A stretch of 64,000 nucleotides of DNA from Xanthostigma xanthostigma (Eukaryota > Arthropoda > Insecta > Raphidioptera > Raphidiidae). The notes under the pieces are model-generated. The model was not told where the DNA came from. It saw nothing but the letters and a program-made list of their open reading frames with translations, and ran no database searches. Made by a program: the position numbers and the translations under genes. The stretch's first letter is position 1. Every line of letters begins with the position of its first letter. Positions 1,386 to 53,190 of this stretch are shown piece after piece. The stretch is taken from positions 26,746,465 to 26,810,464 of the forward strand of contig OY754468.1 of the NCBI GenBank assembly GCA_963575645.1. Direction: 5' to 3'.

Positions 1386-1533
1386 TATATGTCGCCGGGA
1401 TATTGTCAAATCCGTGATTTTGTAATTTCACTAGTGAAATTACAATATCACGATTGACAAAGATTCGTGATATTATAATTTCACTAAGTGAAATTATAAT
1501 ATCACGGGTTTGACAATATCCCGGCGACATATA
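1386..1533. mobile_element. T-shaped fold-back element, copy 1
   Basis: The outer arms TATATGTCGCCGGGATATTG and CAATATCCCGGCGACATATA pair completely. Between them lie two separate perfect or near-perfect hairpins, one centred on TTTCACTAGTGAAA and one on TTTCACTAAGTGAAA. The single strand would therefore fold as a stem with two side arms, a three-way junction. It has no coding capacity. A close second copy lies at 53039..53190. No clear target duplication can be separated from the TATA at the tips. Confidence 0.8.
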
Positions 1534-2653
1534 CAAGCTATAATTTCATAACTACTATTTGTAATATGTTACACCCGAAGACTTTAATGATTGTAGAGAC
1601 ACGAAACCTGTGACATTTAATTCAACCTTAAAATGAAGTTTCTCAGTTTAAGGGGGGCACCTAGTGTAACAGATAAAAAAAAACACTTATTTCAAACATT
1701 TTATTTTTATACTAACTATATTTTTATGATATTTTAATGAATTAGATAATAACAACTTATTTCCATAGTGACATAATATAACCCCAGGACCGACCTCAAA
1801 ATTAAAGAAAATTGAATAAAACTTATTTAAACTTCGAAAGGCTGTTTCTTTCTTATTTTTGAGTTTTCATAAAATAACTATTTGAAATATTTGCTCGTCT
1901 ATTTGATTTTTACACGCTGTAAAAAAAAGCATCAACTTAAAACTCACCTTGTATAGAACATCTTTTAAAGTTCTTAAAAAAAATTATTCATTTTTTCGGT
2001 AAAAAATGGCGACTTGGTAGAACATGATTAATAACAAATAATAAAATCACTTGAAAATTCTGCAAAATGAGTCCAATCAGTTCATCTTCAGGAGTACTCC
2101 TAAAAAAGGGCTGGTTGTCCGAAACGATCGTCGAGAGAGAAAATATTTTGTAGAATTTTCAAGTGTTTTTATTATTTGTTATTCTGTATTATTTCTATAT
2201 CTGCCATTCTGTATCATTTATGTTAAATATTTAATCCAGAGATTTCAACGCTGGTAGAGAAACGAAACATTTATTAAACTTTAAAATGACCCTGAATTTA
2301 GGTTTCCATATCAGTATCTTATTTTCAAAGTAATTGAAAAATACGGCCACATTTGTTCATGAAAACAACGATTTTAAGTTAGGAATTCGATTCCTTCTCA
2401 CTGCTTTGTAACTAAAAATACGTTTGTAATACGAATTAACTAAATAAGGTATTTCATGGGTTGCAGAAAGCATTGTTAGAAAATCTGATTGGAGAATAAT
2501 CTTAGATTGCATAATACATAATAAGAAAAGTATAGTAAAATTTAAGTCTATCTTGCTCGAAATGTAGGTAATTGATCGATCGATTGCGTGTAATGTGCAT
2601 ATAAATGTATTTTTAACATAGCTTTTTTGTACAATTTACACTTCAAAACAACA
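1534..2653. other. AT-rich stretch with a weak internal repeat
   Basis: A segment near 1585-1655 (GTAGAGACACGAAACCTGTG) recurs in weaker form near 2240-2300 (GTAGAGAAACGAAACATTTA), suggesting an old duplicated repeat. No gene is seen. Confidence 0.35.
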
Positions 2654-3319
2654 TTTTTTGACGTGATAACGTCTTATAAATTGATGAATCACCAATCTTA
2701 TAAATTGATAAAACACCGGCTGCATGTACGAAAAAGTGTAACGTTCCTAACGTAACGTTCCTAACGCGTAACGCGTAACGTTCCGCCTGACCCTGTGCGT
2801 GCTTTTTGCTAATTTCTCGCTCAATTTAAATCAGATCGGTTTGAAACCAGTCTTAAACGAAAGAGGAGAACATTTTACATAGATTTCGTATAACAGAATT
2901 TGCCTAAACAGTTTTTTTATACAAATTTATATAGAAAAATAGCTGTATAAATGCAATGTTGTCTAATGCATGACGCGACACGGTCGGTCGTCTTTGTTTG
3001 CCGTACATGGAAATTAGAAAATAACGTATGTCTTGTCTTAACATGAAAACGGCTGCATTTCTAATGTTTAATTCAATTTTTTGACATTAGTATTTTGTGA
3101 AATGCAACGCCTTCTAAGTTAAGTATTGGAATAACTAATTATTATTAGAACATAATACTTTGACAGTTGCAAACGTCACTTTTGACATTTCTTATCATTC
3201 CGACACCAAGGATAAGCGGATTGAAACCAAATTTTGGGAGGTTTAGGTTATGTATTACGGAATACGTTATCACGTAAAACTATCGTCCGTAAACCGACTT
3301 TACAGACAACCAATTTTTT
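2654..3319 (-). repeat. Family A repeat, long version with block B
   Basis: The left end TTGACGTGATAACGTCTTAT and the right end CGTCCGTAAACCGACTTTAC match the ends of shorter family A copies at 11.28, 15.39, 32.04 and 62.63 kb (this one is reversed relative to three of them). A block of about 400 bp replaces part of the middle. Much of that block (about 2815-3125) recurs alone at 13425..13765. Within the left end CCTAACGTAACGTTCCTAAC is a small local duplication. No coding region. Confidence 0.7.
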
Positions 3320-3789
3320 AAGGCATATTTTTGCTTGAGAAGCGATCTTTTTCTATGTACATCAATCATTTGTTTTTCTGTACATACCTACCGTCTAATG
3401 TTATATATGACAGAAGGTTCCTGAATGTATAAAAACTGCAATAAATTGTGTGAAAACAATCTAAGAATTGTCAAATCAGATTTTTCGACCATCATGTCTG
3501 CAACCCAACAAAAGTATAGGTAATAGCTGCCGTGTTAACTAGGGCCTCCAATATAGGCTAAACCTTAATTACCGCACTGATTTTGATATTTCATTCTTAG
3601 TTCCAGAATTATCCCAGAACTGTTTTCCGATAGAGAAAAATCTATATACCTACTAGATGCACGTAGCAGTAACCTTTTATTCAATTACATTTTGGGGGTC
3701 AAACAAGAAAATAAACACTGTCGACTAGTAATAATTAGAATCCTTTCGAATATATACATTAAACAAACTTGTGAGTACCTATACTAAAT
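3320..3789. other. AT-rich stretch with a small dispersed repeat
   Basis: Around 3335-3420 the sequence (GAAGCGATCTTTTTCTATGT, then ATCATTTGTTTTTCTG) resembles 19552-19620. Nothing else is recognised. Confidence 0.35.
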
Positions 3790-4594
3790 ATATATACAGG
3801 TGTTAGAAAATTCCCGGATCCCCGAAAAATCTTGCAGACGACGCATGCAATAAAAAAACGTGAAAACACGTGAAAAATATTTTTTGTGAGCTATTTAATG
3901 ACACCACCCATAACCCCCCACCCCCCACACAGTGGGTGGGGCGGTGGGCAACTTTGTAATTTTAAATGAAAACCCCTAATTTTTATTGCAGATTCGGATT
4001 TTACTACAAAAAATACGTAAATTTTACTTGAACTCTTTCTTGTTTATCCGCGACACATGTCGCGGTAATCGCGAAAAATAAAAAAGTCAAATATTTCTCG
4101 AAACAATCAAATAAGAATTGGCATCAAAGAGGAACACTAAAAAGCACGTATCTAATACTTTTTTAAAGCCATTCATTGATATCAGTAATGACCCCCTATT
4201 ACATTTTAGCTAATAATCGCGAACAGCTGTCATATTTTGTGTATTTACGTATAAATTCAAAGCTTGCTTTGTCAGTGTTTGTATGTAATTAATACGTAAT
4301 TAATTAATGTATTTAATAATCGTGCTTACGACCAAGGTATTAAGAAAAATAGTATACACCGCACTGGCCGAAGGTATTTTTTGTAGTAAAATCCGAATCT
4401 GCAATAAAAAATAGGGGTTTCCATTTAAAATTTCAAAGCTGCCCACCGCCCTACCCGCTGGATGAGGGGTCATGTGTGGTGTCATTAAATAGCTCTTAAA
4501 AAAATATTTTTTAAGTGTTTTCATATTTTTTGATTCCATGCATCGTCTGCGAGATTTTTCGGGGTTCCGGGACTTTTCTAACACTCTGTATATC
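3790..4594. mobile_element. Inverted-repeat element, about 210-bp arms
   Basis: The left arm (about 3790-4010) and right arm (about 4371-4594) are inverted copies. Both carry GGTGTTAGAAAA or its complement at the tip, then a CCCGAAAAATC block, a GACGACGCATG block, a GTGGGTGGGGCGGTGGGC-like block and TTTACTACAAAAAATAC. The central 360 bp contains part of repeat G. The 112-residue frame on the minus strand is only the read-through of the right arm. Confidence 0.7.
4185..4366 (-). repeat. Repeat G fragment
   Basis: Text from CCCCTATTACATTTTAGC through AGAAAAATAGTATACACC to GCACTGGCCGAAGG matches the reverse of 26878..27065. In that second copy it continues into a palindromic core (26765..26891). 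Here the core is missing and the sequence passes straight into the right arm of the surrounding inverted repeat. Confidence 0.65.
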
Positions 4595-5358
4595 ATTCTA
4601 GAAAAATTGTTGGCGAAAAGTTTATATTTAAGGTACACTTCCGGGTCGGAAAATTAAGCAACAATTTGTTAATTTTTAATCTTTTCATTAGCTCCAATAT
4701 TAATATCTTCACTTCCAGGATTATGTTTAAGCGTTTGTCCGGAATTGCGAAGTCTCGGTTTTTCCGTATGAATTCCCTAGTGTTAACTTCGTTCTATTTG
4801 AAATTTAAAATAATAACGACTTCGTGTTTTTTTTTTTAATTTGTAAATCTATAGTTCCGACAGAATATTCTCAAAGTATTTTTTTCTGTAAGAAATGCTT
4901 TAATGTAAATGTCTCCATAAAAATAATAAATAACAGCGTCGTTACCGTAAAAAATCACAAAGTTTACGTCACCTAGCAAATAAAATTTAATTATTACCTA
5001 TTCTTAGTACAATTCACGTAACGAATCGTGTCTTGATATTATCGTTGCGTTGTTATAATAATGTCTTCAAGATGAGACGTGTCTTTTTTATGAGAGATTT
5101 TCCACGTTGATATTAAATCTGCGTAAAGTTGCATGTTCTCTAACATCACGGCTGTTCCAAAAAAGCCAATACAATCATTGTTATAATTTTGTTTACTAAT
5201 CGAGCCCGCTTGAAGGTGATTTTTAGTCGATATTAAAGCCGAAGCAAAACTTCGTTTGAGAACTGCATAAATAAAAAAATAAAAGTAGCTTTTCCTTTGA
5301 GATAAGAAACTCGAAGCGAAATATTTGATGTCGGTCGTACATAGGCAGTGGTTTAAGC
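4595..5358. other. AT-rich stretch, no gene seen
   Basis: I find no supported exon or complete repeat in this stretch. Confidence 0.3.
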
Positions 5359-5660
5359 CAGGCGTGTCAGACTGATTTTTCTAAAGAGCCATTTATAAGA
5401 TTTAGGGTTTGTTAACGGACCAGACTCTAAATTAAAAACTAAAACACATATAAAATTATTTAGTTTAAATCTAATTTCATATAAAGGTGATAAAAATGGT
5501 AAATTATCTTGAGCTTGAGGATTCAGCAATGTTAAAAATGCGTAGTTGTAATCGTATGCCGTCTTAAATCGTTATTGGATAGATTCTGGTCGCGGGCCGT
5601 ATTGAGATGGCTTGAACGCCGGATGCGGCTCGCGGGCCATAATATCTTTGACATCACTTG
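5359..5660. mobile_element. Degraded hAT/Charlie-like element
   Basis: The left end CAGGCGTGTCAGACTG and the right end TTTGACATCACTTG are weak inverted repeats of the CAGNNGTGTCAAA type. Two CGCGGGCC blocks (about 5592 and 5633) lie near the right end, as is common in this group of hAT elements. No transposase remains. Confidence 0.5.
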
Positions 5661-6355
5661 TGTAAATCATAGACCTGTACATTTGGACTGAGCCATCCGT
5701 ATCTTCACAATGGGATGAAAATGGTCACACAGAGTAATAAGACGTGCGTGCGGTAAATTCTATCCTTGTCTGGGTGGTGAGCAGTGAGAGAAATGTGATT
5801 TGCACCCTGGCAAGCCCGGACCGGGCAGCGATAGTATTTCCCATCAACAGATATAGATCATCACGAGAACAGCACATGCTGGCTTGGAATGTGCAAAGTA
5901 TCTGATTGGTTGCTCTATAATCTACTATCTTTCTTGTTTTGATGTGTTGAGTTTCAAGCGACCAATCGGATGCTAAGTAAGCAGTTTTTTTGCTACATCC
6001 AGCTCATGGAATAGAGTTTGTGCTAGCATAACTATGTATTTAGATTTTAGAAGAGGTTCTGCAGCTTTTGAAATTAATGATGAGGTTAAAAATGTGATCG
6101 CTAGAATGTCGATTTTGATTTTGTTCATTTTACTCTAATATATTCTTGAGTCAAAGTTTCTTCTTCAAATTAAAAAATGCCTGAAAATTGTACGTCAGAA
6201 CGAGATACACGTTCTTGTGCTCACATTTTGCCGGCATTTTATCAATTTGCCTGAATTAATAACGAAAATTGCATTGTTCGCTCGCGTTTTGCCGGCTTTT
6301 TATAAAATCCTTAGACATTTTGTAAAATTCCTAATTTTGTATTATGCCTACGACA
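5661..6355. other. Mixed repeat-like DNA, no supported gene
   Basis: A GC-richer patch (about 5720-5840) with ATAAGACGTGCGTGCGGTAA looks like a dispersed repeat. From about 5905 to 5985, GATTGGTTGC and GCGACCAATCGGATG form a loose inverted pair. A 51-codon minus-strand frame with a signal-peptide-like start (6128 down to 5973) overlaps this repeat and is not accepted as a gene. Confidence 0.35.
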
Positions 6356-6483
6356 TAATATACTCTACACGGGCAGAAGGTTTGAGACTCTTGAACTGCG
6401 TGTCATGCTGCCCTCGGTTCGCCTCGGGTATCATGACGCGCAGTGCAATAATCTCTAACTTTCTGCCCTGTGGTGTAATATAC
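6356..6483. mobile_element. Palindromic MITE, family H copy 1
   Basis: Almost the whole unit is an inverted repeat. The outer arms carry AATATACTCTACACGGGCAG and its near complement, the middle arms carry ACTGCGTGTCATG and CATGACGCGCAGT, and the loop is rich in TCGG/CCTCGG. The same architecture and core recur at 26765..26891 and 43267..43390. No coding capacity; both long open frames here are palindrome shadows. Confidence 0.7.
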
Positions 6484-6630
6484 TTTTTTACTAATGTTGT
6501 TTCGATATCTTTTAGACGATGTATTGTTTTACTTACATCTTTTGTAACATGCTGTATGTAAATATAAGAATACAAATAATCAAAATATGCATTGCTTTCA
6601 TTTACGTGAAAGTATTTTCACATAATGTAG

Positions 6631-6840
6631 CCGACACCCGCATATCGGTTTACCTGATATTAAGTATCAAAGAAAGAAAATACATAATAATATATGAAGC
6701 TGAAGGAACTGTAACTAATCCACGGTCACACTTTTTGCAAAGCGCCGGCGTGTTATTAACATTGATACCCGGTTATCATACTGCGATAAATAATAGTCCT
6801 GCAAAAGTTTTAACTGTATTTCGAGGAATAAACGGGATAA
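6631..6840 (+). CDS. Candidate exon, unidentified protein
   Basis: An open frame of about 70 codons runs from just after ATAATGTAG (possible acceptor) to GGGATAA followed by GTAAGTAAGC, a strong donor. It would be a symmetric phase 1-1 exon of 210 nt, a pattern common in modular extracellular proteins. The encoded text includes EAEGTVTNPRSHFLQSAG and LLTLIPGYHTAINNSP. I do not recognise the family. The AG acceptor lacks a good pyrimidine tract. The opposite strand also has an exon-like reading here (6798 down to 6715), so only one, or neither, can be right. Confidence 0.25.
6715..6798 (-). CDS. Alternative terminal exon candidate of the ZP gene
   Basis: On the minus strand a good acceptor (AAAACTTTTGCAG) precedes 28 codons ending in TAG. 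It opens in phase 0, the phase in which the ZP exon at 7120..7253 ends, and the intervening intron would be about 320 bp. The peptide (DYYLSQYDNRVSMLITRR...) does not look like the second half of a ZP domain, so use of this exon would truncate the protein. It may be chance, and it conflicts with the plus-strand reading of the same DNA. Confidence 0.2.
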   Translation of the reverse strand, partial: DYYLSQYDNRVSMLITRRRFAKSVTVD

Positions 6841-7119
6841 GTAAGTAAGCACTTATAAGCTCCTACGCTTTATTTCATTATTCCAGATCTCAAGCGATGA
6901 AGACACTATTGTGTTTTTGAGATCATTCGGAACTTCTTCGAGAAGTTATTACAATTTCCAGAATCAGTTGGGACCTTTTCGATGAGAGTTATTTCGAGTT
7001 CGTGTGAATTTTCCAGTGAGTTTTTCATTCATTTACGTACTTCGTTGAAAATCGTTTAGAGTCAATAAGTTTTACAGGTTATAAAATGGATTAGTAGTTT
7101 AAAATTCAGTTTTGCTTAC

Positions 7120-7253
7120 ATTGTTTGCAAAAACACCGCAGTATTCGGGCGAACCGTATGGTGCTAGAAGGTTGATTCCGAGCTGTAAGAAATTGGAACC
7201 GTTTCCTGTTGTCATACATGCCGGCGTTCGGAAATCTCTTGAATGAACAGCGC
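7120..7253 (-). CDS. ZP-domain protein gene, exon with ZP-N part 2
   Basis: This is the second recognised exon of a zona pellucida domain gene; such proteins form filaments of the apical extracellular matrix or cuticle in insects. The acceptor is TTTCTATTTTCAG and the donor GTAAGC. It opens by completing a split Gly codon with the upstream exon (10863..10965) and ends in phase 0 after 44 further codons. Readable blocks are GAVHSRDFRTPACM, GINLLAPYGSPEYCG and VFANN. The Cys in PACM and in EYCG fit the conserved second and third cysteines of the ZP-N module, and GAVHSRDFRTP fits the F-x-G-x-V-x-x-x-D segment. Its open frame is hidden from simple ORF searches because the frame shifts at the splice. 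The exon carrying the remaining ZP-N cysteine and ZP-C was not found to the left. Splicing is inferred, not observed. Confidence 0.85.
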
Positions 7254-7300
7254 CTGAAAATAGAAATGTTTAAGCGTTAGTGTGATTTTATTGTGTGAAG

Positions 7301-7580
7301 CAGTGGTTCCCAAACTCTTTTGACCCACGGACCCCTTTTCATAGTCAAAACTTGCCCACGGACCCCCTTTCATAGTCAAAACTTTCACACGGAGCCTGGG
7401 TAAAAAACTACATAAATGCATAATAGAAACATTAAAAATTTAATTTTGATGATTGAAACGTCAATGTATTAATTATATATTTTTTTGTTAATATATTGTC
7501 TGAAAAATTGGTCGATAATTTTGTTTTAATATTTATTTAAATTGTCTGCCGTTCTGACCTCGGGTCCCCCGTGTTTACTA
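7301..7580. mobile_element. hAT-like end fragment in the ZP intron
   Basis: The left end CAGTGGTTCCCAAACTC is a typical hAT terminal repeat, followed by two copies of a GACCCACGGACCCC-like block. The right terminal repeat was not found, so the right boundary is a guess. The left end lies only 48 bp from the splice acceptor of the exon at 7253. Confidence 0.55.
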
Positions 7581-8886
7581 AACTTGTATGATTATGGCTG
7601 TTCCTCTCAGTTGAAATTTCGAGTTTCAACAATATCTTTTATAGAGTTGGCTCAGCTAGGGATTTTGGATTTCGCGATTTTTTTAAGCTTAATCGGTGGA
7701 AAAGTGATCACTAGTACACTGTCATTTTTTTAAGAATAATATAAAAATAATGATAATCGAATATGAAAAATAACTTTATTATCTGATAGTATTGTTTAAT
7801 ACCTATTTATTTTTATTTTTTGACATTCCAGAAATCAGTGAACACTTAAATTTTTAATGTTTTTGTAAACTGCATTTTCAAAATGAACTAAAACAACGGC
7901 CACGCGTCTCTTTGGAAACTCTTTTGTTTTTGTTTCATATTTTTGTTTAAAGAAATCGAGATTAAGTTTTGAGTCTCGATGTATGTCTGGAAACTGAGTC
8001 GGGATCACCTCACTGTTTGTAATGACTAATGTTTAAAATGATATTTTGGTTGTCACTTTGTTTAGCAGAATTAAAAAAAAACAAATAAAAGTGATTACCC
8101 AGAGTGATTATTTTGCTAAGCACTTTATAATCACCGTGGTTATAGTTACTAGAAAAGACCTGAATACGATGTATCGTTAGTAGATTACTGGTGGGTTACA
8201 AGATTTGAGAATTGGTCGCACACAGACTGCACCAAATTTGTATAAAAATTAATTGAAGACAACACAAAACTTCCTGTGCAATTTATTCGGGTACCATTTC
8301 GAAGATAATTTTGATTTCCTGTGTTTTGCAATACATGGTACATGGACAGTGGACACTATTAAAACTGAATTTTATTACATATTATAGCTGTGTAAAATTG
8401 TTGGTTTTTAATACGCGATGTTAATTATCCAACAGTAAAACTGTAATCGTTTTTATGACATTGCCTTTTAATCGTGCGGAAGTGGTTCTTTTGGCCCCAT
8501 GATCGACCGTGTGAAAAGGGAAACCGTACGGTTAATGGACAGAGTATTTCATTCATCTCTGATAATGCCGACTTCATCTCATATTATGTTGCATCGTATG
8601 TCAGAGGAAATTGTAATCAAAACAGCATCCTCTCGTTGATAGGCATCAAATACATGGGTGCTTCGGTACTCACTTTTTGTCACTGCAGAGCATATTATAT
8701 GATTTTTTCTCCGATTTTAATACAAACCCTATTCTTTCATTCCATAATATCAGATATTTGTGAATTTGTATCGAATCTGAGCTATACAACTTGTAATCAC
8801 TATCGCCTAAATGTGCTTTGTTGTAATACGGTTTTGTCCTAAGCTCAGAGAGTGAGATCTCCAATTTGAAATTTATAAATATTACT
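7581..8886. other. ZP gene intron, no further exon seen
   Basis: Unremarkable AT-rich DNA. A 122-codon plus-strand frame at 8474-8842 starts with GTG rather than ATG, has no recognisable domain and no splice context, so it is left out. Confidence 0.35.
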
Positions 8887-9075
8887 AGCGGCCCGGTTCG
8901 GCTTCGCCCGAATTTGTAAATTGCCTCCGCTTGTTCGTCGACTTACGTTGCAAAATTGATTTTCACGAAAAGCGTTTTTATTTTAACGCGATAATATATA
9001 GGCTATGTTCTGAAAGTCCATTCTAAAAAATGAAAACATTTTTGCAATCGAATTTTGGAGTCTAAACTTACAAAA
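8887..9075. repeat. Interspersed repeat with CTAGCGGCCC end
   Basis: ACTAGCGGCCCGGTTCGGC followed by TTCGCCCGAATTTG is the reverse of a hairpin plus CTAGT end, as at the 3' tips of Helitrons. Similar heads also occur on insect retroposon fragments. Only the end is recognisable. Confidence 0.45.
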
Positions 9076-9091
9076 TTTATCTCTTTATATA

Positions 9092-9500
9092 ATATAGCGG
9101 TCTTTTCCGGTTTCACCCGGGTATAAGAGATACCTATAATGCTACAAAATGTATTCGTGTGCGACCCGGCATCTGAACTAATAGCTTTGAGTAAATTGCA
9201 AGATCTAACAGATGTCGCTATTTGGTACTAAATCAGTTTTGTTGAATTGCTTCTGAACAAATATTAGTTCAGATAGAATTTACTCAAAGCTTTGAGTAAA
9301 TTCTATCAGACGTCGTTACGTGTTACTAAAACAGGTTTTTGGAAAAAATATCATAATTTTGCACAAAATATTTAATAAAAACTATACTATAGCGTAAGTT
9401 TCACCAAGCAAGACACATTTAAAATTTTATTAAAATCTGTTCAGTGGTTTCGGAGATTAGCGCGGCCAAAATTGTGACACGGGAATTTTATATATATAGA
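9092..9500 (+). repeat. Family P retroposon-like repeat
   Basis: It begins ATATAGCGGTCTTTTCC plus GGTTTCACCCGGGT and ends with GAGATTAGCGCGGCC and an ATATATATAGATA tail, the same head and tail arrangement as 30350..30690. It contains a perfect 36-bp palindrome at 9272-9307. It has no coding sequence and lies in the ZP intron. Confidence 0.6.
9272..9307. repeat. Perfect 36-bp palindrome
   Basis: GATAGAATTTACTCAAAG is followed at once by its exact complement CTTTGAGTAAATTCTATC, with no spacer. A partial third copy (AGCTTTGAGTAAATTGC) sits about 90 bp upstream at 9185. Confidence 0.9.
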
Positions 9501-9842
9501 TATATTTCGTTAGTGAGCTCAAGTTACGTAATCATCCTACTGCCTCCCATAATATCATGTCGGACCCTCATTCCTCATATTATATTCAATCTTGAATTTG
9601 CGACTGTCTTCTGCCAAATCAAGACTTTCCGTAAGAAAACAGTCAAGGTGTTAGGCTTGGCAATACGATAAATAGTACAGATTTTCGTCTGCGAGGGAAC
9701 AGTCAATAGTAATCTGAATGATTATTAACAAGGTCAATGAATTTAACGTTAAGAAAATACACTGTTTTATAGCAATGTGAATTAAAAATAAAAAAAATTA
9801 TTTTAATTATTACTTAACATTGAAACCGTTCATAAAAAAATA

Positions 9843-9971
9843 AATAGTAGGATAATGTGAACTTGGACTAAATATAATATAACTCTACTTCTTCAGACAA
9901 ATAATAACGTTGCAAATTTGTAAAATTTAGCATTTGCTTTATTTAGTCCAAGTTTCTATTATCCTACTATT
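9843..9971. mobile_element. 129-bp MITE inside the left arm
   Basis: The terminal inverted repeats begin GTAGGATAATGTGAACTTGG on the left; the right end reads as its complement, GTAGGATAATAGAAACTTGG, when reversed. TA flanks each side. Non-autonomous; a Tc1/mariner-type origin is only suggested by the TA flanks. Confidence 0.7.
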
Positions 9972-10338
9972 CATTTAATTATAACCGTAAAAATTTTTAC
10001 TCAAATAACTATAATGTTTATACATTTATAAATATTTGTATAAATTATTGTATTATCTTCAAAAACAGCTTAGATGCATCATTACTTTGTAAATATATAT
10101 AAAAAATTCCAAAAGTAAACTTAAATTTTAAAATGTATGAAAAATAATACACGTCTAACCAAAAGAACGTTAATCTAAAATTAAATTAATAAAATAGATC
10201 TTAATTTATGACAACATTAATAATAATTTGTGTCACCTAAAATTAAAATGGTAAAAATTAACGCTGTTTTACAAATATTTATAAATGTATAAACATTATA
10301 GTTATTTGAGTAAAAATTTTTACGGTTATAATTAAATG

Positions 10339-10467
10339 AATAGTAGGATAATAGAAACTTGGACTAAATAAAGCAAATGCTAAATTTTACAAATTTGCAA
10401 CGTTATTATTTGTCTGAAGAAGTAGAGTTATATTATATTTAGTCCAAGTTCACATTATCCTACTATT
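10339..10467. mobile_element. Same MITE inside the right arm
   Basis: This is the inverted counterpart of 9843..9971. Both arms carry it at the same position, so the MITE was present before the arms were duplicated, or one arm later copied the other. Confidence 0.7.
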
Positions 10468-10862
10468 TATTTTTTTATGAACGGTTTCAATGTTAAGTTA
10501 TAATTAAAATTATTTTTTTATTTTTTTCACATTGCTATAAAACAGTGTATTTTCTTAACGTTAAATTCATTGACCTTGTTAATAATCATTCAGATTACTA
10601 TTGACTGTTACCTCGCAGACGAAAATCTGTACTATTTATCGTATTGCCAAGCCTAACACCTTGACTGTTTTCCTACGGAAAGTCTTGATTTGGCAGAAGA
10701 CAGTCGCAAATTCAAGATTGAATATAATATGAGGAATGATATTATTATTATATTATTCTTTATGTGAATATTAATGATGTGCAAGCTGTTGCGAATAGAT
10801 TAATTACTATTATTATTTTTAACGTGGTAAATCATCCATAAATAAATAATGTTTAGACCTAC

Positions 10863-10965
10863 CTATAAAACTTTGATTGAAGGCTATTTTGATGGTCATA
10901 TGCCCTCCTTTACATGTAGCTGTGACTGTGGGAGCGAAATCCGTGTCCACTAGCTGTCCTCTAGC
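10863..10965 (-). CDS. ZP-domain protein gene, exon with start of ZP-N
   Basis: This exon opens the ZP domain. The acceptor is ATCTTTGTGTTTCAG and the donor GTAGGT. It has 34 codons in phase 0 plus one G that pairs with the next exon (7253). Readable blocks are ARGQLVDTDFAPTV, then TATCKGGHMTIKIAFNQSF. The Cys in TATC and the pattern C-x3-H-M-T-I-K-I-x-F fit the first conserved cysteine and first beta strand of ZP-N. The family comprises secreted or membrane-anchored matrix proteins, in insects often needed for cuticle or tracheal shape. The preceding exon, with signal peptide, was not located. Which member it is cannot be told from about 79 residues. Homology is recognised from the sequence pattern; the splice joints are inferred. 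Confidence 0.85.
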
Positions 10966-16018: not shown

Positions 16019-16134
16019 CTAATTTCTACGTTTTAAGGAGTTTTTCGTTAAATAGAAGTTCGTTATATAGGGTTTACACGGTATATATAACCGTGTCGCG
16101 GTGTGGAAATAGTTATTTATTTGCAAGCACGCGT

Positions 16135-16563
16135 TTAAGAGTATTCGTCCCTGCAAACACCCCCTGCACCCTTCATCTCAAATCTTTTCCTCTCGCCTAA
16201 AAACGGTTCGCGCTCTCCCGACGCTATTTTTAAAGCTAGAGGGTTCTGGTAAACGCAAAATGAAAGACAAAGAATCAGACTACAGATCCTTCAGGTGATT
16301 TTTTTGAAAAACAGTTTCGCCTACGTGTGAAATATTACGTAACTTATTATTTTTTTCAAAAGGTTGTAAGTTTATTCAGGAATTTTTTTTCAAAAAATTC
16401 GCCTGAAGGATCTGTAGACTGATTCTTTGTCTTTCATTTGGCGTTTACCAGAACCCTCTAGCTTTAAAAATAGCGTCGGGAGAGCGCGAACCGTTTTTAG
16501 GCGAGAGGAAAAGATTTGAGATTAAGGGTGCAGGGGGTATTTGCAGGGACGAATACTCTTAAA
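16135..16563. mobile_element. Fold-back element E copy 1, about 178-bp arms
   Basis: The left arm starts TTAAGAGTATTCGTCCCTGC and the right arm ends in the complement. Both arms carry CGCTCTCCCGACGCTATTTT, GCTAGAGGGTTCTGGTAAAC and CAGATCCTTCAGG or their complements, almost without differences. The loop is about 75 bases. A decayed relative lies at 58476..58775. Confidence 0.85.
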
Positions 16564-43626: not shown

Positions 43627-43933
43627 AAAACAATTTTTTTAACGAAACTTTGTTGAAAAAATAAATAGAATAATACGGCGTTATGAAAAGTATAAGCATT
43701 ATTGTATAAAAAACACCGTTATAGCATATTATATGTATTCTGCGAATGCGCCGATTTTCCCCATTAACAGTAGATTATATACCTATCTAAGCTGAGTTGC
43801 AGAAACCGTTGTCAAAAATTTTGATTTGACTATGGCCTTAGATTGTGATCATTAAATTACAGTTTTTGTACATTCTGGAGCAGTTTAATGTACCTAGTTG
43901 TTGAATCCTTTGTTATGTAGAGCATTAGATTGT

Positions 43934-44235
43934 ACTCACACATAATACATATCGCTTCACTAGCGGTTTGTGCTCTATTATCGCTTTGCGCGTCAGAGCT
44001 GACTTTCGTTCATACAAGAAGTTATATCTAAGTTAATTTCACACGAAATCCAATCAAATAGTATTTTTTTGAAAAGAGGAGATTTTTTTCTATAAAACAG
44101 AACCATTTTTAGATCGATTTGAGTTCATAATTACTTCGAAAATTGTAATTGAAAATCACCAATAGCAGTCGTCGGTTGGTCTGTACAGATGTACGTACGT
44201 CCGAGCTCTACAGATTATAATCTTGTCCTCTGGTT
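43934..44235 (+). repeat. Family Z repeat, copy 1
   Basis: GTCAGAGCTGACTTTCGTTC, ATATCTAAGTTAATTTCACA and AGTCGTCGGTTGGTCTGTAC followed by a short GTACGTAC run match the reverse of 49262..49586. Confidence 0.65.
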
Positions 44236-44559
44236 GAACTTTTTGTAACGGTAACCTATCCCTTGGATTGTATTATACATGATATTTAAAAATAATTTTA
44301 ATAAATATTTTCATATAAAAAACAACAGGTGAATTGTGTTTGGTCTATATAAATATGCAACCTTGCAGACTAAAAATTTACATAATATAAAACCTTCTAA
44401 AATATCAATCGATATGCTTAATAAATCTATTATTATGAACGATATTTTTTACTACATCGCCACTTTACGCTGTCTGATATTCTATAATTGTTGTTACTCT
44501 CAATAATGAGAGTGAGAAAGAAATTCAATGACGTAGTAATTTCTAAGAACGCAATAGTG
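44236..44559. other. AT-rich stretch, no gene seen
   Basis: No supported feature. Confidence 0.3.
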
Positions 44560-44872
44560 CAGGGGTGGCGAACCTATGGCACGCGTGTCACAGGTGCCAC
44601 ACGACAGATTATTGTTGACACGGCATTGATTGAGGTGCAAAATCAAAATAATTAAAGATATGCTAGATGTCGAAAAAAACTGACTGTCACCAAATAGCAA
44701 ATACGAGAAAGTTTCATAGTGCTCAGTGTATTATCGAAATTAGTCTTTTCATCTATGTTTGATTCGTTTTTTTCACAACTAAATTTCTTTGGCTGCTTCT
44801 CGGCACGTCGTGGTTACAAACATGTATGAAAAAAAAAATGGCACGTACAGGTAGAAAGGTTCGCCAACCCTG
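44560..44872. mobile_element. hAT-like non-autonomous element (313 bp)
   Basis: CAGGGGTGGCGAACCTATGG at the left and AGGTTCGCCAACCCTG at the right are inverted repeats of hAT type. The interior has no reading frame. An 8-bp duplication is not clean (CAATAGTG against CTGAGTAG). Confidence 0.65.
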
Positions 44873-46539
44873 CTGAGTAGTGCAATTGTTCAGATTATTC
44901 ATGTTAATTTAGAACTATTTTAATATTTTAAATAATAATTTCCTTTCTGTGTTAATTTATGGGAGTGTGCCGATTATATTTTTCCGCGTAGTGTTATATA
45001 GAGTGTACTATTTTGAAAAAAATATTCCTGATTGTTACTTCAATTATAATGCCTACAAACCTTTATTCGTCATCTTTTCTGCGAAAAATTTGGAAGATGC
45101 CTCATCCGAACGAATAAAAAATATTTTTATAGAATCACAAAATAAAAAAGTTAAATATACTGTCCAACATCAATATCTGCCGTTTGCACATATTTCTACA
45201 TCCGTCCCCAATCGTTTATTTTTATTTTTTATTCCATGCAAATAGAAGATGAAATAAATATTTCGTTAATACGTAATTTAATGATGTCTATTTAAAATAT
45301 TTTTATTTTGATGGGGTAGATTAAAAATCAACTTTGTCTGTACTTCGGAACCCAAATAAACAATTTATTAAGTTAACAAATTGCATACACTATAAAAACA
45401 TACAGTATAAAAACGTATAAAAAGCTGCATATCTATTATCATGTATATTTTATTACTATAATATATTATGAACTTTCATCTAAAATTTTGGTAACAAATA
45501 GATCAAGGTTGCTCGATAGAGGTAAGAACAAGAGTTTATTTAGCTATTAATAAACAATAACGTATCGAATTGATTGATTATAACTAGCATATCATTTACC
45601 AATCGATTACAATTTCGTATACTGTTATTTTTTTATAAAGGTTAAGATTATAATATATTTTGATATTTAAATAAATGATAATCGTTTATTTCAGAATAAA
45701 ATTACAAGTTGCAGAACTTTATTCATGCGTAACAATAAATGTATGGACATAAACTATAGTCAGTGCAGACAAACCGTTATACTTAGCGAAATTAATGTCC
45801 GTTAACTTCGTATGCAAATGAATACACCACATAATTTGTACGCAAACTTTTAAATTGTTGCGAAAACATGACTGATGCTGGGACAGCGAAGGAGGGGTTA
45901 GTTGCGCATAGGGCAAGTTGTAACATAGCTATATCTCGGAACACGAACAAATCACAGTCTGAACACGTGACGGCTGCGTAATTTCAGCGTGAACAGAGTT
46001 AATCGTCGTCTGACAATTAAATGAAGCTAAAGAATGCATTCTTTTTTAATTTTTTTGCCAATAAGTTAATATTTTCTTCGAAATTGTTTTTTGCCTGAAA
46101 ACAAAAGCTTTCGATAAATTAAGTTGAAGTATGTGTCTTTTTATTACACGATTATCTTATGTTATTATAGCAACATCAAAAATGAAAATAGTAAAGGGTT
46201 TTACAGTATTATTTTTAACATGATATTTATTCAGAAGTACGCGTTTGGGGCTAGTTGTATACGCGACTCAATTAACCCCGTCATTCATGAAACATTGCAT
46301 TTGTTTTTCAGGATGTATCGAGTATAGGTAGGTGTGGCTGACGTTTGATTGAAGTGTGATATCGGCAAAGACGGATTGGTCGTTTTAAACTTATATTTTT
46401 TAATTAAAAATGATTGATATAATTTATATTTTGTTTCTGTATGTTTTCGTTTGATTTAAAAGTTAAAATTCTGCTTATTACAGGGTCGTTTTTAACTGCA
46501 TTCTTTCAATATTTATATTATAATCAAGTAAATAATAGT
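44873..46539. other. AT-rich stretch with one protein-like frame
   Basis: A 98-codon plus frame (44949-45245) starts with GTG; its second half (IFSAKNLEDASSERIKNIF) looks protein-like, but no family is recognised. A minus-strand ATG at about 45926 opens MLQLALCATNPSFAVPAS and ends within 45 codons. Neither is accepted. Confidence 0.3.
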
Positions 46540-46770
46540 GCTTGCTCAGCTTGCTCCAGACTTTGACTCAGTGGGGTAAGTTGAGCAGCTCTGACTTCAT
46601 AAAAATAAATGTTATTGTCTTCTTAAGCATATCTTCTGAAATAAATTTATCCCCATTTATAACTTCTAGGGTAAGAGGCTTTCCTTTGTTATGCTTATGT
46701 TGCATGCATTACAAGTTGTTCTAAAAATATATTATTTTTTGCTCAACTAGCCCCGTCCTACCCTACCTAC
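46540..46770. repeat. MITE-like repeat with GTTGAGCA ends
   Basis: GTGGGGTAAGTTGAGCAGC at the left and TTTGCTCAACTAGCCCCGTC at the right are loosely inverted. The boundaries are uncertain. Confidence 0.4.
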
Positions 46771-47071
46771 ATTTATTTTTTCGATTGGATCATGTCGAGT
46801 GTGACGAGAAAATTATTCTCTCTAATATATTTTATTTTTTTGTTTGTTCAGCCTTAACTTCTCGAGCGGATAAATGATTTCGACACCGCTCTGTTCAGGT
46901 AGATGACTGATTACTCCCATATAATTTGTTTAACAAACACAAATTTAATCGCCTTCAAAAAGGACCACAAAGAGTGAATAATAAAACTTTTTATAATGAA
47001 AAATTGGAAAAAAAAAACAGAAAAATATTTTAGAGATGAGTGACAATTTAGTAGAAGCATAGATGTAATTA
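46771..47071. other. AT-rich stretch, no gene seen
   Basis: No supported feature. Confidence 0.3.
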
Positions 47072-47716
47072 AAAAATTCCAGCCAATTGGGCGACGGGAC
47101 CATTCCAACTTCAAAAATGTTGACATTTGATTATAATGAAGAAAATAAAATTTCTGATATCGCGTGAGGTGACGCGGGTAATGACTAGTATTCAATATGA
47201 TATTAACTATTCGTTGCCATGGTTATCTACATAGTATGTTCCACGTCATGTAAAAATTAATCAAAGCATGCCTAACTAGTTTATTTCTGACAGATCCAGA
47301 GCGGATGATTTTTTTTTTATTTTCAAAATATTTCCGAAACTATAAAGTTTAGAAAAAAAAAATTTAACAAAACTTTCTTGAAAAAATAACTAGAATAATA
47401 AGCCGTTATGAAAAGTATACCATTATTATATAAAAAATACCGTTTTAGCATGTATCTCTTCTGCGCATGCGCCGATTTTCCCCAAAAACAATAGGGCTCT
47501 TCATATTTGGATACCAAACATCCTCTCAAAATTTGGTTTCAATCCGTTTGACCTGTATCGTGTTCACAGACAATCAGACTAACAGACGCACAGAGTTTTT
47601 CTAAAAATATGTTTTTTGGATTCGGGGGACCTCAAAACGGAAAGATATTGTAAAATTTTTGAAAAGTGATTTTTGACCTAAACTAGTACCATTCCCCACT
47701 TGTGGGTTGGAATGGT
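47072..47716 (+). repeat. Family J repeat, uninterrupted copy
   Basis: It begins AAAATTCCAGCCAATTGGGC and GACGGGACCATTCCAACTTC and ends CCCACTTGTGGGTTGGAATGG, so the two ends share an inverted ATTCCAAC unit. Near the end it holds TCACAGACAATCAGACTAAC, a phrase common in insect repeat tails. No coding sequence. Confidence 0.65.
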
Positions 47717-48479
47717 AAAAAATGTTTTCAACGAGCAAGACTTTTCCCGAAGTATTGTTCTTGCAGTTCTTGAAAGTTGAGTTTTAATCTTATTCTTGCT
47801 ACCAAAACTAAGACTGCAACACCAATATCGATTTTGCTCATGAAGTCATGACGAATAATTTGTGTTTATGAAAGAAAATTTCAAATTGGTTTATACTATT
47901 GAATTAAATAATATTGAAAACAATAATTGTGAGCATAGTAAAATATTGTGTATGTTCCTCATATGCGTTTATAATTGTAATACCGTAACTGCGTATTTGA
48001 AAATATTTTTACAAAAGGAAAAATAAGGTATATTAAACGTGAAAAAGACATTAAATGCATTTTATGATATTTGTATGGCAACACTTAATATAAATACAAC
48101 AATAGACACAGATGTAGAGGTGTAAAAACACGATAACGACCATAAATTTAAAACTAATACCCTATATGCGCGAAGATGGGTAGTGTTTGTAAAGAATTCT
48201 ATACAAGAACTTCTTAGAACTCGTGAACTCTCTGGTATAGGTTTATATTTTTTTATCGTTGTTATGTTTCCAAAATCGGTTTTATTTTTAGGTGTTTATG
48301 ATACTGATAACTATAAAAGTTTATAGCTGAATTATTTCAAAGAAAATTTATTTTTGCATAGTATAAAATTCTCAATTTAAAAAATATAGTTAAAGACAAA
48401 AAACGTATATATTTTATCTTTAATGATATTTTTAAATTTAGTAAGCAGAAATAATCCTTCTAAATAAAATATCGCGCAC
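47717..48479. other. AT-rich stretch, no gene seen
   Basis: No supported feature. Confidence 0.3.
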
Positions 48480-48660
48480 ACTATACCAACACGACCAGCA
48501 TAGAACGAACCAGAAAAACCTGTTCGTGAAGATACGAATGTTACTTAACGGAGTAGCGCAACCGGCAAACGGCAACAACCGTAAGTTGTCCGCCTGCAAC
48601 TTTTGTCTAGCTGCGCTGAACCGATCTATGCGAATTATAAGTAAGTTGAAATGTCTCTTT
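48480..48660. repeat. Possible relative of element N
   Basis: CGCGCACACTATACCAACAC and TTAACGGAGTAGCGCAACC with GGCAACAACCG echo blocks of 31597..31856 (CGCGCACACTT, TTAACGAAGTAGCGCAC, CAGCAACAACCG). The match is weak and partial. Confidence 0.35.
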
Positions 48661-48950
48661 TGACTGGACTAAATATAGTATGTTATTTTTTGCATTGCAC
48701 AATTTTGGACAATGTTTTTCAATTTTCGACCTTGACCTTGCTGTCGTACCACCGAAAAAAAATCCTTTTTGAATCAACTTTATTATATATAAAAATAGTT
48801 GGCAAAACCAAAAGTGCACATCCCGCAAGTTTTCCACTGTACATATTATAATGAAAAAAAAATTGAGAAAATAGATTTAAAAAAAAACAATTAAAAAAAT
48901 AGAAAAAAAAAATAAAAATAAAATGGAATAGAAAAAAAAAATATATTACT

Positions 48951-49027
48951 TGGTGTCAGCGGGAATCGAACTCGGCACCTTGCTATTACTGGACTACGCG
49001 TTTAACCACTCGGCCATTCTGATATCC
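48951..49027 (-). tRNA. tRNA-like pol III unit, Leu/Ser-type head
   Basis: On the minus strand ATGGCCGAGTGGTTAAACGC is a strong A box and GAGTTCGATTCCCGC a strong B box, 3' end TGACACCA, followed within about ten bases by a T run that could stop RNA polymerase III. The acceptor and T stems pair poorly (CCGAG against CCCGC), so a normal tRNA is unlikely; a tRNA-derived SINE head is the best guess. An A-rich block (48850-48950) lies downstream. Confidence 0.5.
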
Positions 49028-49261
49028 CAGCTTGCGTTGTTATTATGGTATAGAAGTGGAGCAGTTATTCTACGTAATACACTACATTACAATAACAGTA
49101 ATAGATATTTTTTTGTTTTTTTAAGGTTTTTTATTTTAACTATTAGCTGTCAAAAATAATAAAATAAAACTGTTTATAAAAATTAAACTACTGAACACAT
49201 TTATGTGAATTTAAATAGGGTTCTGGTCTGATAGTAAACAAAGTGAATAAAATATAACCCA

Positions 49262-49586
49262 AGGCAATCCGACCAAAATTGCGATCTGTAGAGTCGTGAC
49301 GTACGTACATACGTACATACGTACATCCGTACATACGTACATACGTACAGACCAACCGACAACTGCTGTTTGTAACTTTCAATTACAATTTTAATAGTAT
49401 TTATGAACTCGAATTGATTTAAAAATGGTTCTGTTTTATAGATCAGAATCTCCTCTTTTCAAAAAGCTTCAATTTGAATGGATTTCGTGTGAAATTAACT
49501 TAGATATAACTTCTTATATGAACGAAAGTCAGCTCTGATGCTCAAAGCGATAATAAAGCACATACCGCTAATTTAGCGGTATGTGC
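49262..49586 (-). repeat. Family Z repeat, copy 2, with end hairpin
   Basis: Reverse of 43934..44235. It contains an expanded CGTACATA run (about 49299-49348) and ends in a perfect hairpin GCACATACCGCT-AATTT-AGCGGTATGTGC at 49558-49586. Confidence 0.7.
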
Positions 49587-50078
49587 AATTGGATGTCCTA
49601 ATATGTGAACGATGAAATTAAATACCAATGTAATTATTTATAATTATATTGACTTTTTTGCAACCAATTCATAAACTTTAGAAGTTCTTTTCTCGCCACG
49701 CGCCACTTAAAATCAATCGCGTATCCCCGTTTGGAAAATATTGAAGTAGGGAAAGAAGTTCACAATAATATTTTTTCAAACGTTTTGTTTTTGCTTTTTA
49801 CCTCCATGGTTATTTTATTTTCGACTTCGTTGTTTAAACGTTGAAATACGTCATTAGCATGTTTATTTGCATAATTGACTCTGTACATAATGCGGACCTT
49901 TTTCGTTATTTGATTAAAAAGCTGACAAACAAGAATTTTAAACGGATTCAGTTGATTTTTAATTTGTCTCATCATCTTTTACATTTGTATTTTTATACGT
50001 AGCTGAGATAATATTAACATTCTTAAGTAGGTAGATAGGTTAAGTTCGAAAGAGTTATACCTAGAACCGATAATACCA
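49587..50078. other. AT-rich stretch, no gene seen
   Basis: No supported feature. Confidence 0.3.
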
Positions 50079-50539
50079 CAGTAGAACCTCTGTAATTCGA
50101 ACTTCAAGGGAGACGCTAAACCATTTGAGTTAGATATAGAGTTTTAGACTTATTAAGGATTTCAACTTAGGCGGATTTTCTCAGGAAATATTCGACTTGT
50201 AGAGGCTAAGATTTATTCTAATTTTGAGTTAAATTTCAAATAAAATCAAGAAACAATAATATGCTATGTTCCAGATACAGAGGTCCAATTTATTTTTTAG
50301 AGTAACGCCTAGCACACATGAAGAGCGTTCAACGCGCGTTGGGCCAACGCGCGTTGAACGCCTCTCATATAAACTAGGCCTTATAGAGGGAAAATATGTA
50401 CCGAAGTGGCTTGTAGGGACTCATTGATTTTTACGACAAATAGAGGATTGCGATTTCGAGTAATGGAGGTTTTGGAGCTTGAAGAAAACAAAACATGTTT
50501 TTGAGTTTTGAAGGTTTTAGACTTATTGAGGTTCTATTG
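50079..50539. mobile_element. Pogo/Tigger-like MITE with nested palindrome
   Basis: CAGTAGAACCTCTGTAATTC at the left and TTATTGAGGTTCTATTG at the right are pogo-type tips. The interior repeats GTTTTAGACTTATT and GAGTTTTGAAGG units. A second palindromic element (50305..50380) is inserted inside. Confidence 0.55.
50305..50380. mobile_element. Palindromic micro-element, GCGTTCAACGCGCGTTGG
   Basis: GCGTTCAACGCGCGTTGG and CCAACGCGCGTTGAACGC are exact complements separated by a single G. CGCCTAGC and ACTAGGC lie at the outer tips. All-CpG arms stand out in AT-rich DNA. Confidence 0.75.
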
Positions 50540-52149
50540 AAAAATTATTATTGTAAAATATTTGAAATATGTATAAATGATTTTCTCTTTAAATTTGATT
50601 CACAGTAATAATAATTGTTGTACATTTTTCAAATCCGTTTTGTTTATTAAATTATTTTTCTTTATTAGTACAAATTTTTTACTAATAAAAAAAAAGACAT
50701 ATATAAGTTCACGGCACTACTCTCTGGCTGAACTGCTTCAATCGTGAATTTTGGTTTATCAATAAACTACTCCTTCTGGATTTTTTCAAAACAAATGAAT
50801 GATGGCGCATAAAAGGGTCAACAACTATTTTTGAAATATGACTGAAAACGCTGGAACACTTCGAACCTTTTTCGAGAATATTCCAGATTTATTTTTTCAT
50901 TCATCACGACACACCGCTCTTTCTAGATTTCTTCAAAACGAATGTCGGCATAATCAAAATCATTACAGCCGTATTCCAGAAAACAGCAGTTTTCTATTTT
51001 TATACATCAGTAAACTACGCTTATTTAGGGAAGTAGAGACAAGACAACAAAAAGGCCCTAAAGGAATTCTATAAAAATATTCAGTTTAAAATTTTGTTCT
51101 GATCCGTTAAAAGGTGTATCACTTAGGCCAGGTGTCGGCAGCCTATGACCCACGAATCACCAAGTGATTCATCTAATAATTTCAAGCGATCCATTTCTTG
51201 AGTATCGCAAATAAAGTATAAATCATTATAAAATATACAAAAATAAATTTTAAAACATAAACATGAAACCATCACTTTAAGAAAATATTAATAGTCTACG
51301 ATAAATATTTAGTTTTTCTATATTTTGGACCCGAAGCCAAAAAAGGTTTCCGACGTTTGAGCTACGCCTTTGCTTATAGGACGCACAAATGGACGGACAT
51401 TCAAAACTTATTTTTTTCGGTATGTATGGATTATGTAAAAAACCTTGTAGTCTACTTTTTCTCCATGACAAGACTTTTTTTAGTGTCCTGTATGGTCGCT
51501 TGAAAGTAAAAACGAGCGATTTTAGTTGAAATTTCGTTTTGTTTTAATGAATTCATTGAAAAAATATTATTGTTCAAGCCATGAACGAGCAGAAAAAATA
51601 TTCGTTGGAAAACAAAGGCGTAATTAATGGGATGAACGTTTTGTCAAGGTTTTTTGCGCCCACTAAATACTTATGACTAGTGGAATACCTAATATATTAC
51701 GTATAATTGGAATATTACATCTTTATTATTACGTTTTGCAATATGTCACTGGGACAATTATAATAACAAACAACAAATTATTAAACTGTTACAGAACTGT
51801 TGTTTACTGCCACCAAAATATTATGTAAATCAATAAACATATTTCGTAGGCAAATTATTAGTTCACATTGTTTTTATCTACGACTTCGGTCGTATGGACG
51901 TCGTTTTTGTCTGTAGATTCGCTCGCGTTAACGTTAGTTTTAGCCCGAGAGTAGCAGGGCAAAACTACATATTTAGGTATCAAATAATCAACTGATAATA
52001 ATGCATCAAGTTTAATCAAAATCGATGTAGTCGTTTTTATGTAATGCCGGTACAAACAGGAAAAACCGTCAAAAATTCTGGAAACGCTGTATCCAGAGAA
52101 GAAAAATCTCGAAAGAAAACGAAATTGATGACAAAACTCTTGTATTATT
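50540..52149. other. AT-rich DNA with scattered repeat ends
   Basis: CTTCTGGATTTTTTCAAAAC (50773) and TTTCTAGATTTCTTCAAAAC (50921) are repeats of one another. AGGTGTCGGCAGCCTATGAC (51129) is a lone hAT-like tip. At 51300-51460 GACCCGAAGCCAAAAAAGG and GGACGGACATTCAAAAC look like a SINE piece. No gene is supported. Confidence 0.35.
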
Positions 52150-52540
52150 TTTTACCCGACTGCGGCGCAGCCAAAAAGGATGGATTATAAGTATAGCAAT
52201 GTATTTACGGATGTTCCAACGTAACTCCTAAACTGTTCATCCGATTTTAATAAATAAAGTTTCAATCGATTCGTTATTATTATGGTCTGGTTAACATAGG
52301 CTACATTTATTTTTGAATTTTGGTACCAGGGGTGGCAAATTGGAAACAAATAAAAAATAATTAAAAAAAAAAACAATAATTTAAATAAAAAATAAGTTCA
52401 TAAGCTAAAACCCGAATATGGTCCGGGTAACATAGGCTACATTTATTTTTGAATTTTGATCCCAGGGGTGAGCAAATTGGAAACAAATAAAAAATAAATT
52501 CCAAAAAAATAATTTAAATAAAAATTAAGTTCAAAACTTG
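52150..52540 (+). repeat. SINE-like family V with internal duplication
   Basis: It opens TTTTTACCCGACTGCGGC then GCAGCCAAAAAGGATGG. The block GTAACATAGGCTACATTTAT with TTTTGAATTTTGATCCCAGG occurs twice (about 52285 and 52423), so a 137-bp part is duplicated in tandem. Confidence 0.6.
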
Positions 52541-52790
52541 CTGAAAAGTATGAAACAAGAAAATATTCTCATCTGAGGATAGCCGTGGTCGTATGCCACC
52601 CACCTTAACAAAACAAGCGATCATAAGTTTTAGGGTAAAGTGTATCACGCTAATGCTATACATCTAGAGGGCGCCATATGACCCATATATATGGGTGGCA
52701 TACGACCACGGCTATCCTCAAACGAGAATATTTTCTAGTTTCATACTTTTCAGTAGTCGGGTTTTAGTTTTTGAACTTAATTTTTATTTA
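52514..52790. mobile_element. Inverted-repeat element, about 100-bp arms
   Basis: GATAGCCGTGGTCGTATGCC and GGCATACGACCACGGCTATC, GAAAATATTCTC and GAGAATATTTTC, GAAAAGTATGAAAC and GTTTCATACTTTTC are the paired blocks; the pairing goes on outward through AATTAAGTTC/GAACTTAATT. The loop is about 65 bases with GGCGCC at 52670. Confidence 0.75.
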
Positions 52791-53038
52791 TACAATAAGG
52801 CCTTCACATGAAGTTGTGTTGACATGGTAGCTATTGAAATCATAAAGGCATTACAAAAACTCGTTCCACAAAAATACAACATAGACCGGACGCCCAAAGA
52901 AGGTCTATATGCATTTAGTATGGAACGATTCTCTTTATTGAATTCCCATAGCTACTATATCTTTAAATTAAATTCATTGTATAATTACACAGTTTTAATT
53001 TCGCAATAGGACTACGCCTATTAAAATGACGCCTGGTG

Positions 53039-53190
53039 TATATATGTCACCGGGATATTGTCAAATCCGTGATATTGTAATTTCACTAGTGAAATTACAA
53101 TATCACGATTGAAAAAGAGTCGTGATATTGTAATTTCACTAAGTGAAATTATAATATCACGGGTTTGACAATATCCCGGTGACATATATA
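53039..53190. mobile_element. T-shaped fold-back element, copy 2
   Basis: Same design as 1386..1533: outer arms TATATATGTCACCGGGATAT and ATATCCCGGTGACATATATA, two inner hairpins on TTTCACTAGTGAAA and TTTCACTAAGTGAAA. Compared with copy 1 the outer arms differ by one base pair that changed on both arms together (GTCACC/GGTGAC here, GTCGCC/GGCGAC there). Confidence 0.8.

Follow-up and report, generated by a model that had tools for sequence, protein, structure and literature searches.

The window, as we call the whole stretch of DNA analysed here, comprises 64,000 nucleotides (nt) of the insect Xanthostigma xanthostigma (contig OY754468.1, positions 26,746,465 to 26,810,464 of the forward strand). 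An initial annotation, made from the letters alone, had described in it two fold-back sequences at 1386..1533 and 53039..53190, each with outer arms that enclose two inner palindromes, and our analysis confirmed both the coordinates and the presence of these parts in the sequence. Both fold-backs are copies of one 140-base-pair (bp) mobile element, which is common in the genome and recently active (Table 1). We consider it probable that this element is a non-autonomous palindromic miniature inverted-repeat transposable element (MITE) of the Ginger2 type, in which a paired difference at element positions 5 and 136 marks two sets of source copies, and which occasionally undergoes template switching between its folded arms. 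The paired difference between the outer arms, which had drawn attention to the two copies, is exact: a G/C pair in copy 1 stands against an A/T pair in copy 2. The copies are also unlike at element positions 30, 69, 75 and 86. A scan of the window with Rfam at gathering thresholds gave no matches.

Table 1. Parts of the two element copies, in window coordinates
Feature	Position	Strand	Remarks
Left target-site duplication, copy 1	1386..1389	.	TATA
Copy 1, 140-bp palindromic element	1390..1529	+	G/C subfamily (30T, 75T)
Copy 1, position 5	1394	+	G, the R of TGTNR; pairs with C1525
Copy 1, inner palindrome 1	1414..1451	+	38 nt, element positions 25-62
Copy 1, inner palindrome 2	1467..1505	+	39 nt, element positions 78-116
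Copy 1, position 136	1525	+	C; pairs with G1394
Right target-site duplication, copy 1	1530..1533	.	TATA
Left target-site duplication, copy 2	53041..53044	.	TATA
Copy 2, 140-bp element	53045..53184	+	A/T subfamily (30A, 69A, 75G, 86G)
Copy 2, position 5	53049	+	A, the R of TGTNR; pairs with T53180
Copy 2, inner palindrome 1	53069..53106	+
Copy 2, inner palindrome 2	53122..53160	+
Copy 2, position 136	53180	+	T; pairs with A53049
Right target-site duplication, copy 2	53185..53188	.	TATA

Results

Abundance and age of the family

The exact 21-bp terminal repeat, TGTCRCCGGGATATTGTCAAA, occurs 1168 + 1173 = 2341 times in the 623-Mb genome (28 contigs), and its reversed pattern, used as a control, does not occur in the same genome at all. 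The A form of the repeat followed by C or T was found 348 + 333 times. The length of 140 bp, the 2341 exact terminal repeats, the inverted repeats and the target duplication are together those of a MITE. When copy 1 served as a DNA query, 832 candidates were obtained, and the best 40 of these are all 100% identical over 148 nt, an identity that is biased by the way in which this set was obtained.

Copies for comparison came from the matches listed (the first 100 places per pattern); all were chosen for at least one exact terminal repeat, and one batch was chosen for the A form. A set of 54 copies with both ends covers contig C1 up to 26.9 Mb, three loci from the copy 1 search and the window's two; 46 of the 54 are exactly 140 nt long, and both the 54 and the 46 include loci L098-L100, picked as identical to copy 1. 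For a wider set, 106 distinct aligned places were reduced to 94 by a loose filter and to 83 by a stricter one, which also removed 11 named truncated or rearranged loci. The copies share ancestry, and counts made on them are therefore not independent. In the five classes with at least four copies among the 83, the mean difference from the consensus of the copy's own class is 0.84-1.25%, a figure that selection for exact ends pulls somewhat down; this indicates a young family. A pooled comparison had made the A/T lineage look older (1.65% versus 0.86% and 0.56%), a reading that was withdrawn, as the classes taken one by one are about equally divergent.

Ends and target site

The ends of the element read TGTC[G/A]...[C/T]GACA. 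A perfect 4-bp repeat adjoins the ends in 48 of the 54 copies (44 TATA/TATA, two CATA, one GATA and one TATG) and in 71 of the 83 copies of the wider set. The CATA, GATA and TATG duplications fix the length of the duplication at 4 bp. The consensus of the insertion site is T-R-TATA-Y-A, with R at -5 in 51 and Y at +5 in 52 of the 54 copies (79 and 80 of 83 in the wider set). Empty sites, which the initial annotation had suggested as the means of finding the target duplication, agree with a 4-bp TATA: in one host repeat, 16 of 40 among the matches listed read GCTT-G-TATA-CACAC, one listed site each has C or A in place of the G before TATA, and the filled sites L019 and L023 carry the C- and A-variant flanks of the same host repeat. 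In 82 of the 83 copies position 5 is occupied by G or A, and the complement of these stands at position 136 in 83 of 83; since the copies were chosen by one exact end, this tests TGTNR independently for the second end only. The arms pair over about 65 nt, beginning with an exact outer repeat of 21 bp, after which a T/G mismatch follows.

Passages of the paper that describes Ginger2 transposons give them TGTNR termini, a 4-bp target-site duplication and an RTATAY target, along with terminal inverted repeats of about 50-180 bp and a transposase with an H2C2 zinc finger and a DDE domain (PMC2836005). TGTNR ends, a 4-bp duplication and RTATAY are thus published marks of Ginger2, and the element is therefore best read as a Ginger2-type MITE. 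Ginger1 was rejected, because its target duplication is CCGG or CCGT in the same source (PMC2836005) and here it is TATA. Tc1/mariner was rejected as well: it needs a 2-bp TA duplication, as stated in part of PMC10741241, and the copies flanked by CATA, GATA and TATG fix 4 bp. The element could alternatively belong to another superfamily with AT-rich 4-bp duplications, such as Sola2, whose members do produce them. However, the duplications quoted in the relevant part of PMC3627910 are AWWT, ATAT, AAAT and ATTT rather than TATA within RTATAY, and the TGTNR ends fit Ginger2, so that we regard this alternative as improbable.

Searches for an autonomous partner count against the Ginger2 assignment. 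Three patterns, each a terminal repeat followed by foreign sequence, returned 5, 0 and 1 matches, with no transposase element among them: the five are variants of the MITE, and the one reads, judged from the listing, as the MITE with a deletion. An interior pattern gave 0 matches. As no transposase-bearing partner was found, membership in Ginger2 is read from the ends and the target only. The absence itself is weak evidence, because each pattern needs several simultaneous mismatches and passes by our estimate about 10-25% of foreign continuations, and the searches consisted of these four end or interior patterns, with no search at the protein level. One locus of about 1 kb, L039, was considered as a longer relative and set aside, since it appears to be this MITE containing a further repeat; at 1500-2508 of this locus, a MITE copy is interrupted by a repeat that has inverted repeats of its own.

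The initial annotation had also noted that a three-way junction is known from the hairpin telomeres of linear single-stranded DNA genomes. Apart from this shared plan, nothing supports the link to viruses. A viral hairpin telomere sits at the end of a linear viral genome. The present family has a very large copy number; the sampled copies are interspersed in chromosomes, most of them with a 4-bp duplication, empty sites exist, and of 106 distinct aligned places 83 have the same 140-bp unit. Viral contigs gave two exact 18-place matches, but in neither does the sequence beyond the 18 bases searched follow the element, and they were taken as chance. We give the idea that the fold-backs are viral remnants practically no credence.

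The paired change at positions 5 and 136

Among the 46 copies of 140 nt, the pair 5/136 is G/C in 29, A/T in 15, G/T in one and T/T in one. Among the 83 copies it is A/T in 45, G/C in 30, G/T in five, A/C in two and T/T in one, which leaves 75 of 83 paired; the 45:30 is not a genome ratio, because part of the 83 were chosen for the A form. The 49 copies not so chosen, the window's two included, have 30 G/C, 17 A/T, one G/T and one T/T. The paired change separates subfamilies, and it affects the R of TGTNR, which may be either purine.

The annotation had offered two explanations of the paired change: that the folded shape matters, or that one arm is copied from the other. In the first, selection on a T-shaped or hairpin fold would keep the stem pairs by compensatory change. 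The pairing of 5/136 in 75 of the 83 copies is what such selection would leave, and two further observations likewise run counter to an account that does without it. First, locus L044 has a two-sided change, AT to GC, at 88/106 in inner palindrome 2, where 12 changes are one-sided. Second, the T22/G119 mismatch is changed in 10 of the 83 copies, and all 10 changes restore pairing. The excess of changes there over other sites has a Poisson probability of 1.3e-7 with the all-site mean and 1.7e-5 with the G/C-site mean, both of which are too small because the copies share ancestry; among these changes, L041 and L047 have another change in common, and that of L067 belongs to a converted stretch (see below). 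Sites 24 and 118 nearby have 6 and 4 transitions, respectively, and these break pairs. Occasional correction of one arm by the other at T22/G119 is plausible.

Most of the data, however, do not support a required shape. A comparison of the 46 copies with their own classes at the remaining mirror-paired columns showed 34 one-sided changes and not a single two-sided one. Pairing here means a simple mirror register in which position i faces position 141-i; this register is correct in the outer part and one position out further inwards. L044 and L083, which have mixed ends, were each the sole member of their group and for that reason could not contribute to the 34. Inner palindrome 1 has 10 one-sided changes and no two-sided change, and the commonest G/C form is itself mismatched at 30/111. 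Selection on the fold is therefore unlikely in our view, also in the light of the folding energies given below. The paired change is weak evidence for a needed shape and shows, on its own, no functional structure. The outcome that the annotation had named as a refutation, independent arm changes in a larger sample, was largely obtained for changes other than 5/136. Nor does one need the annotation's view that simple MITEs would not be expected to retain such pairing, because copies descended from matched sources show the same pattern.

How the step at 5/136 arose is a separate question. The G/C class 30A/69C/75G/86A (8 copies) and the A/T class on the same background (12 copies) differ at these sites only in 5/136, and L142 is the one-step G/T form. 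A single template switch that rewrote one arm in a source copy, which then spread, would account for two subfamilies that agree at four other diagnostic sites and are unlike at 5/136. It would also be in keeping with products that look arm-copied (L067, L074 and the composite described below) and with the homogenisation of arms described in parts of PMC8604942 and PMC8794818. Against such a switch, the existence of one-step forms (five G/T and two A/C) means that two ordinary mutations suffice, and position 5 lies within a CpG in the G form, so that the A form could arise easily. We thus think a single switch possible, if somewhat doubtful; the step may be two ordinary mutations. One copy, L086, has A/T on an otherwise G/C background (30T/75T) and is either a second paired change or a recombinant. 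Together with L091 and L118 it has A/T ends on 30T backgrounds, and these three are subfamily recombinants or instances of a repeated paired change.

Folding of the element

As single strands, copy 1 and copy 2 fold with -62.6 and -70.3 kcal/mol, compared with shuffle means near -12.4 (z-scores -18.3 and -23.3; 0 of 200 shuffles as stable). The minimum-energy fold of both copies is one long hairpin. Inner palindromes 1 and 2, each nearly a duplicate of the other, are able to pair with one another. A T-shape, written out by hand rather than optimised and scored with DNA parameters, reached -50.7 versus -62.6 kcal/mol for copy 1 and -51.6 versus -70.3 kcal/mol for copy 2, a cost of about 12 and about 19 kcal/mol. 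The plan of two inner palindromes that led to the idea of a three-way junction is present, but the T is an alternative fold, 12-19 kcal/mol worse than the hairpin, and is probably not used; this cost also speaks against selection on a T-shaped fold. The subfamilies fold with -59.6 (G/C 30T), -61.2 (A/T 86A), -62.7 (G/C 30A) and -65.8 kcal/mol (A/T 86G), and the 30/111 mismatch of the commonest G/C form is absent from the other forms. As the subfamilies are alike in divergence and yet span this range of energies, success does not track pairing and tight pairing is not required, which is a further point against selection on the fold.

Copies in which one arm resembles the other

The second explanation, that one arm is copied from the other, is partly supported, as a process in a few copies and in the composite, and not for the 5/136 change itself. 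The left arm of L067 carries three linked states of the right arm (positions 22 and 33, and an additional T after 42). L074 consists of two left arms that together make an 86-bp perfect palindrome; around it, a perfect palindrome of 384 nt takes in 149 nt of flank per side and adjoins a partial copy having the same flank. Such a layout would result from a fold-back inverted duplication. Exact matches to the left-left core were found in two places, L074 and L106, of which the latter is a different rearrangement. Template switching would explain L067, L074 and the composite; parts of PMC8604942 and PMC8794818 describe how it homogenises the arms of inverted repeats, and template switching at palindromes has been reviewed (in part of PMC7999016).

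A composite palindrome around the MITE

Of 30 identical copies fetched, eight (L003, L011, L012, L016, L017, L025, L028 and L030) form the centre of a larger palindrome, as do L099 and L100. This composite is a palindromic repeat of about 680 bp, with ends AAAGGACCCCGCACGG and the MITE at its centre. Nine composites keep both outer ends, with arms mostly of about 269 nt, L011, L012 and L100 differing more; L017 is without the outer part of one arm. Since each composite has a MITE copy in its middle, some of the copies identical to copy 1 probably owe their spread to the composite and not to movement of the MITE itself.

In the nine composites, five departures from the consensus are common to both arms (one each in L003, L011 and L025, two in L028), and one of these is shared by L011 and L028. 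One-arm substitutions number 16 and one-arm gap runs 13, so most changes are not in both arms. A short stretch is present in both arms of several composites and missing from one arm of L012 and from the unfilled form (L154-L156), which is a further sign of arm copying.

A composite palindrome without the MITE was found in 0 places with exact flanks. The composite arm not followed by the MITE was found in 19 places, 14 of which read CAGTATATACAA. Three of these 14 were fetched (L154-L156), and they represent an unfilled form, an element of 392 bp whose end repeats measure about 142-148 bp and whose middle, of about 100 bp, is one-sided. By eye, no clear target duplication was seen around the composite or the unfilled form. 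Going by the sequences, it appears that the MITE landed in a TATA of the 392-bp element, that the right side was then replaced by the inverted left side, and that the product multiplied; no copy was seen that combines the MITE with the right side which the 392-bp element had originally. It seems to us nearly an even question whether short palindromic MITEs seed foldback elements in this way, copying across the base of the hairpin having made the nearly perfect palindrome of about 680 bp from the 392-bp element, and also paired arm changes.

Other features of the window

An open reading frame of 115 amino acids on the minus strand, at 60879-61226, encodes a MADF DNA-binding domain (Pfam PF10545, E 4e-15). 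Two large inverted repeats, at 9784-10526 (arms of 260 nt at 98%) and 16134-16563 (arms of 183 nt at 96%), are perhaps further foldback elements. The inverted repeat at 63625-63784 has an arm that resembles, by eye, L156 near 1197-1393, and it is probably a dispersed repeat.

Discussion

We propose that the element would be moved by an integrase-like (Ginger2-like) transposase made elsewhere, which would recognise the TGTC[G/A] ends. The G-C and A-T forms of 5/136 would then represent two sets of source copies that were successful, each of which conforms to TGTNR. A palindrome so close to perfect probably predisposes the locus to fold-back template switching in DNA replication or repair, and switching across the hairpin or its base would now and then copy one arm, or flank, onto the other. 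Template switching may also have made the 5/136 step, but two sequential point changes would explain it too.

A paired change in a repeat should not be taken to prove that an RNA or DNA structure is at work. The same paired pattern results from template switching and from descent from matched source copies, so that structural readings of such changes call for caution. The genome contains many palindromes that are nearly identical, together with an unfilled relative and derivatives that are themselves palindromic, and it thereby allows fold-back copying between arms to be counted. The composite origin, if true, would be a concrete route by which foldback transposons are born, in which the palindrome of one transposon turns another transposon into a foldback element.

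The 140-bp family is new and of a known type. Its nearest described likeness is Ginger2-1N1_NV, a 252-bp family of a sea anemone treated in part of Bao et al. 2010 (PMC2836005), with which it has in common the TGTNR ends, the 4-bp duplication, the RTATAY target and the nature of a short derivative; unlike it, the present element has 140 bp and is an almost complete palindrome with two nested inner palindromes. Among the literature matches, at the level of titles as listed, nothing was to the point for a published insect Ginger2 MITE. The iMITEdb collection, in the portion of its description at hand, likewise classes insect MITEs by ends and target duplication, with Ginger as one of 16 superfamilies (PMC5199201). 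The arm copying resembles template-switch mutations at quasi-palindromes and foldback inversions, for which parts of PMC8604942, PMC8794818 and PMC7467729 describe homogenisation of arms and hairpin-mediated foldback inversion, although those are mutation processes and not a transposon family. The composite recalls the Galileo foldback elements of Drosophila willistoni, in which, according to a section of PMC4168063, secondary insertions in one terminal repeat are later found in both; Galileo, in contrast, belongs to the P superfamily and makes 7-8 bp duplications.

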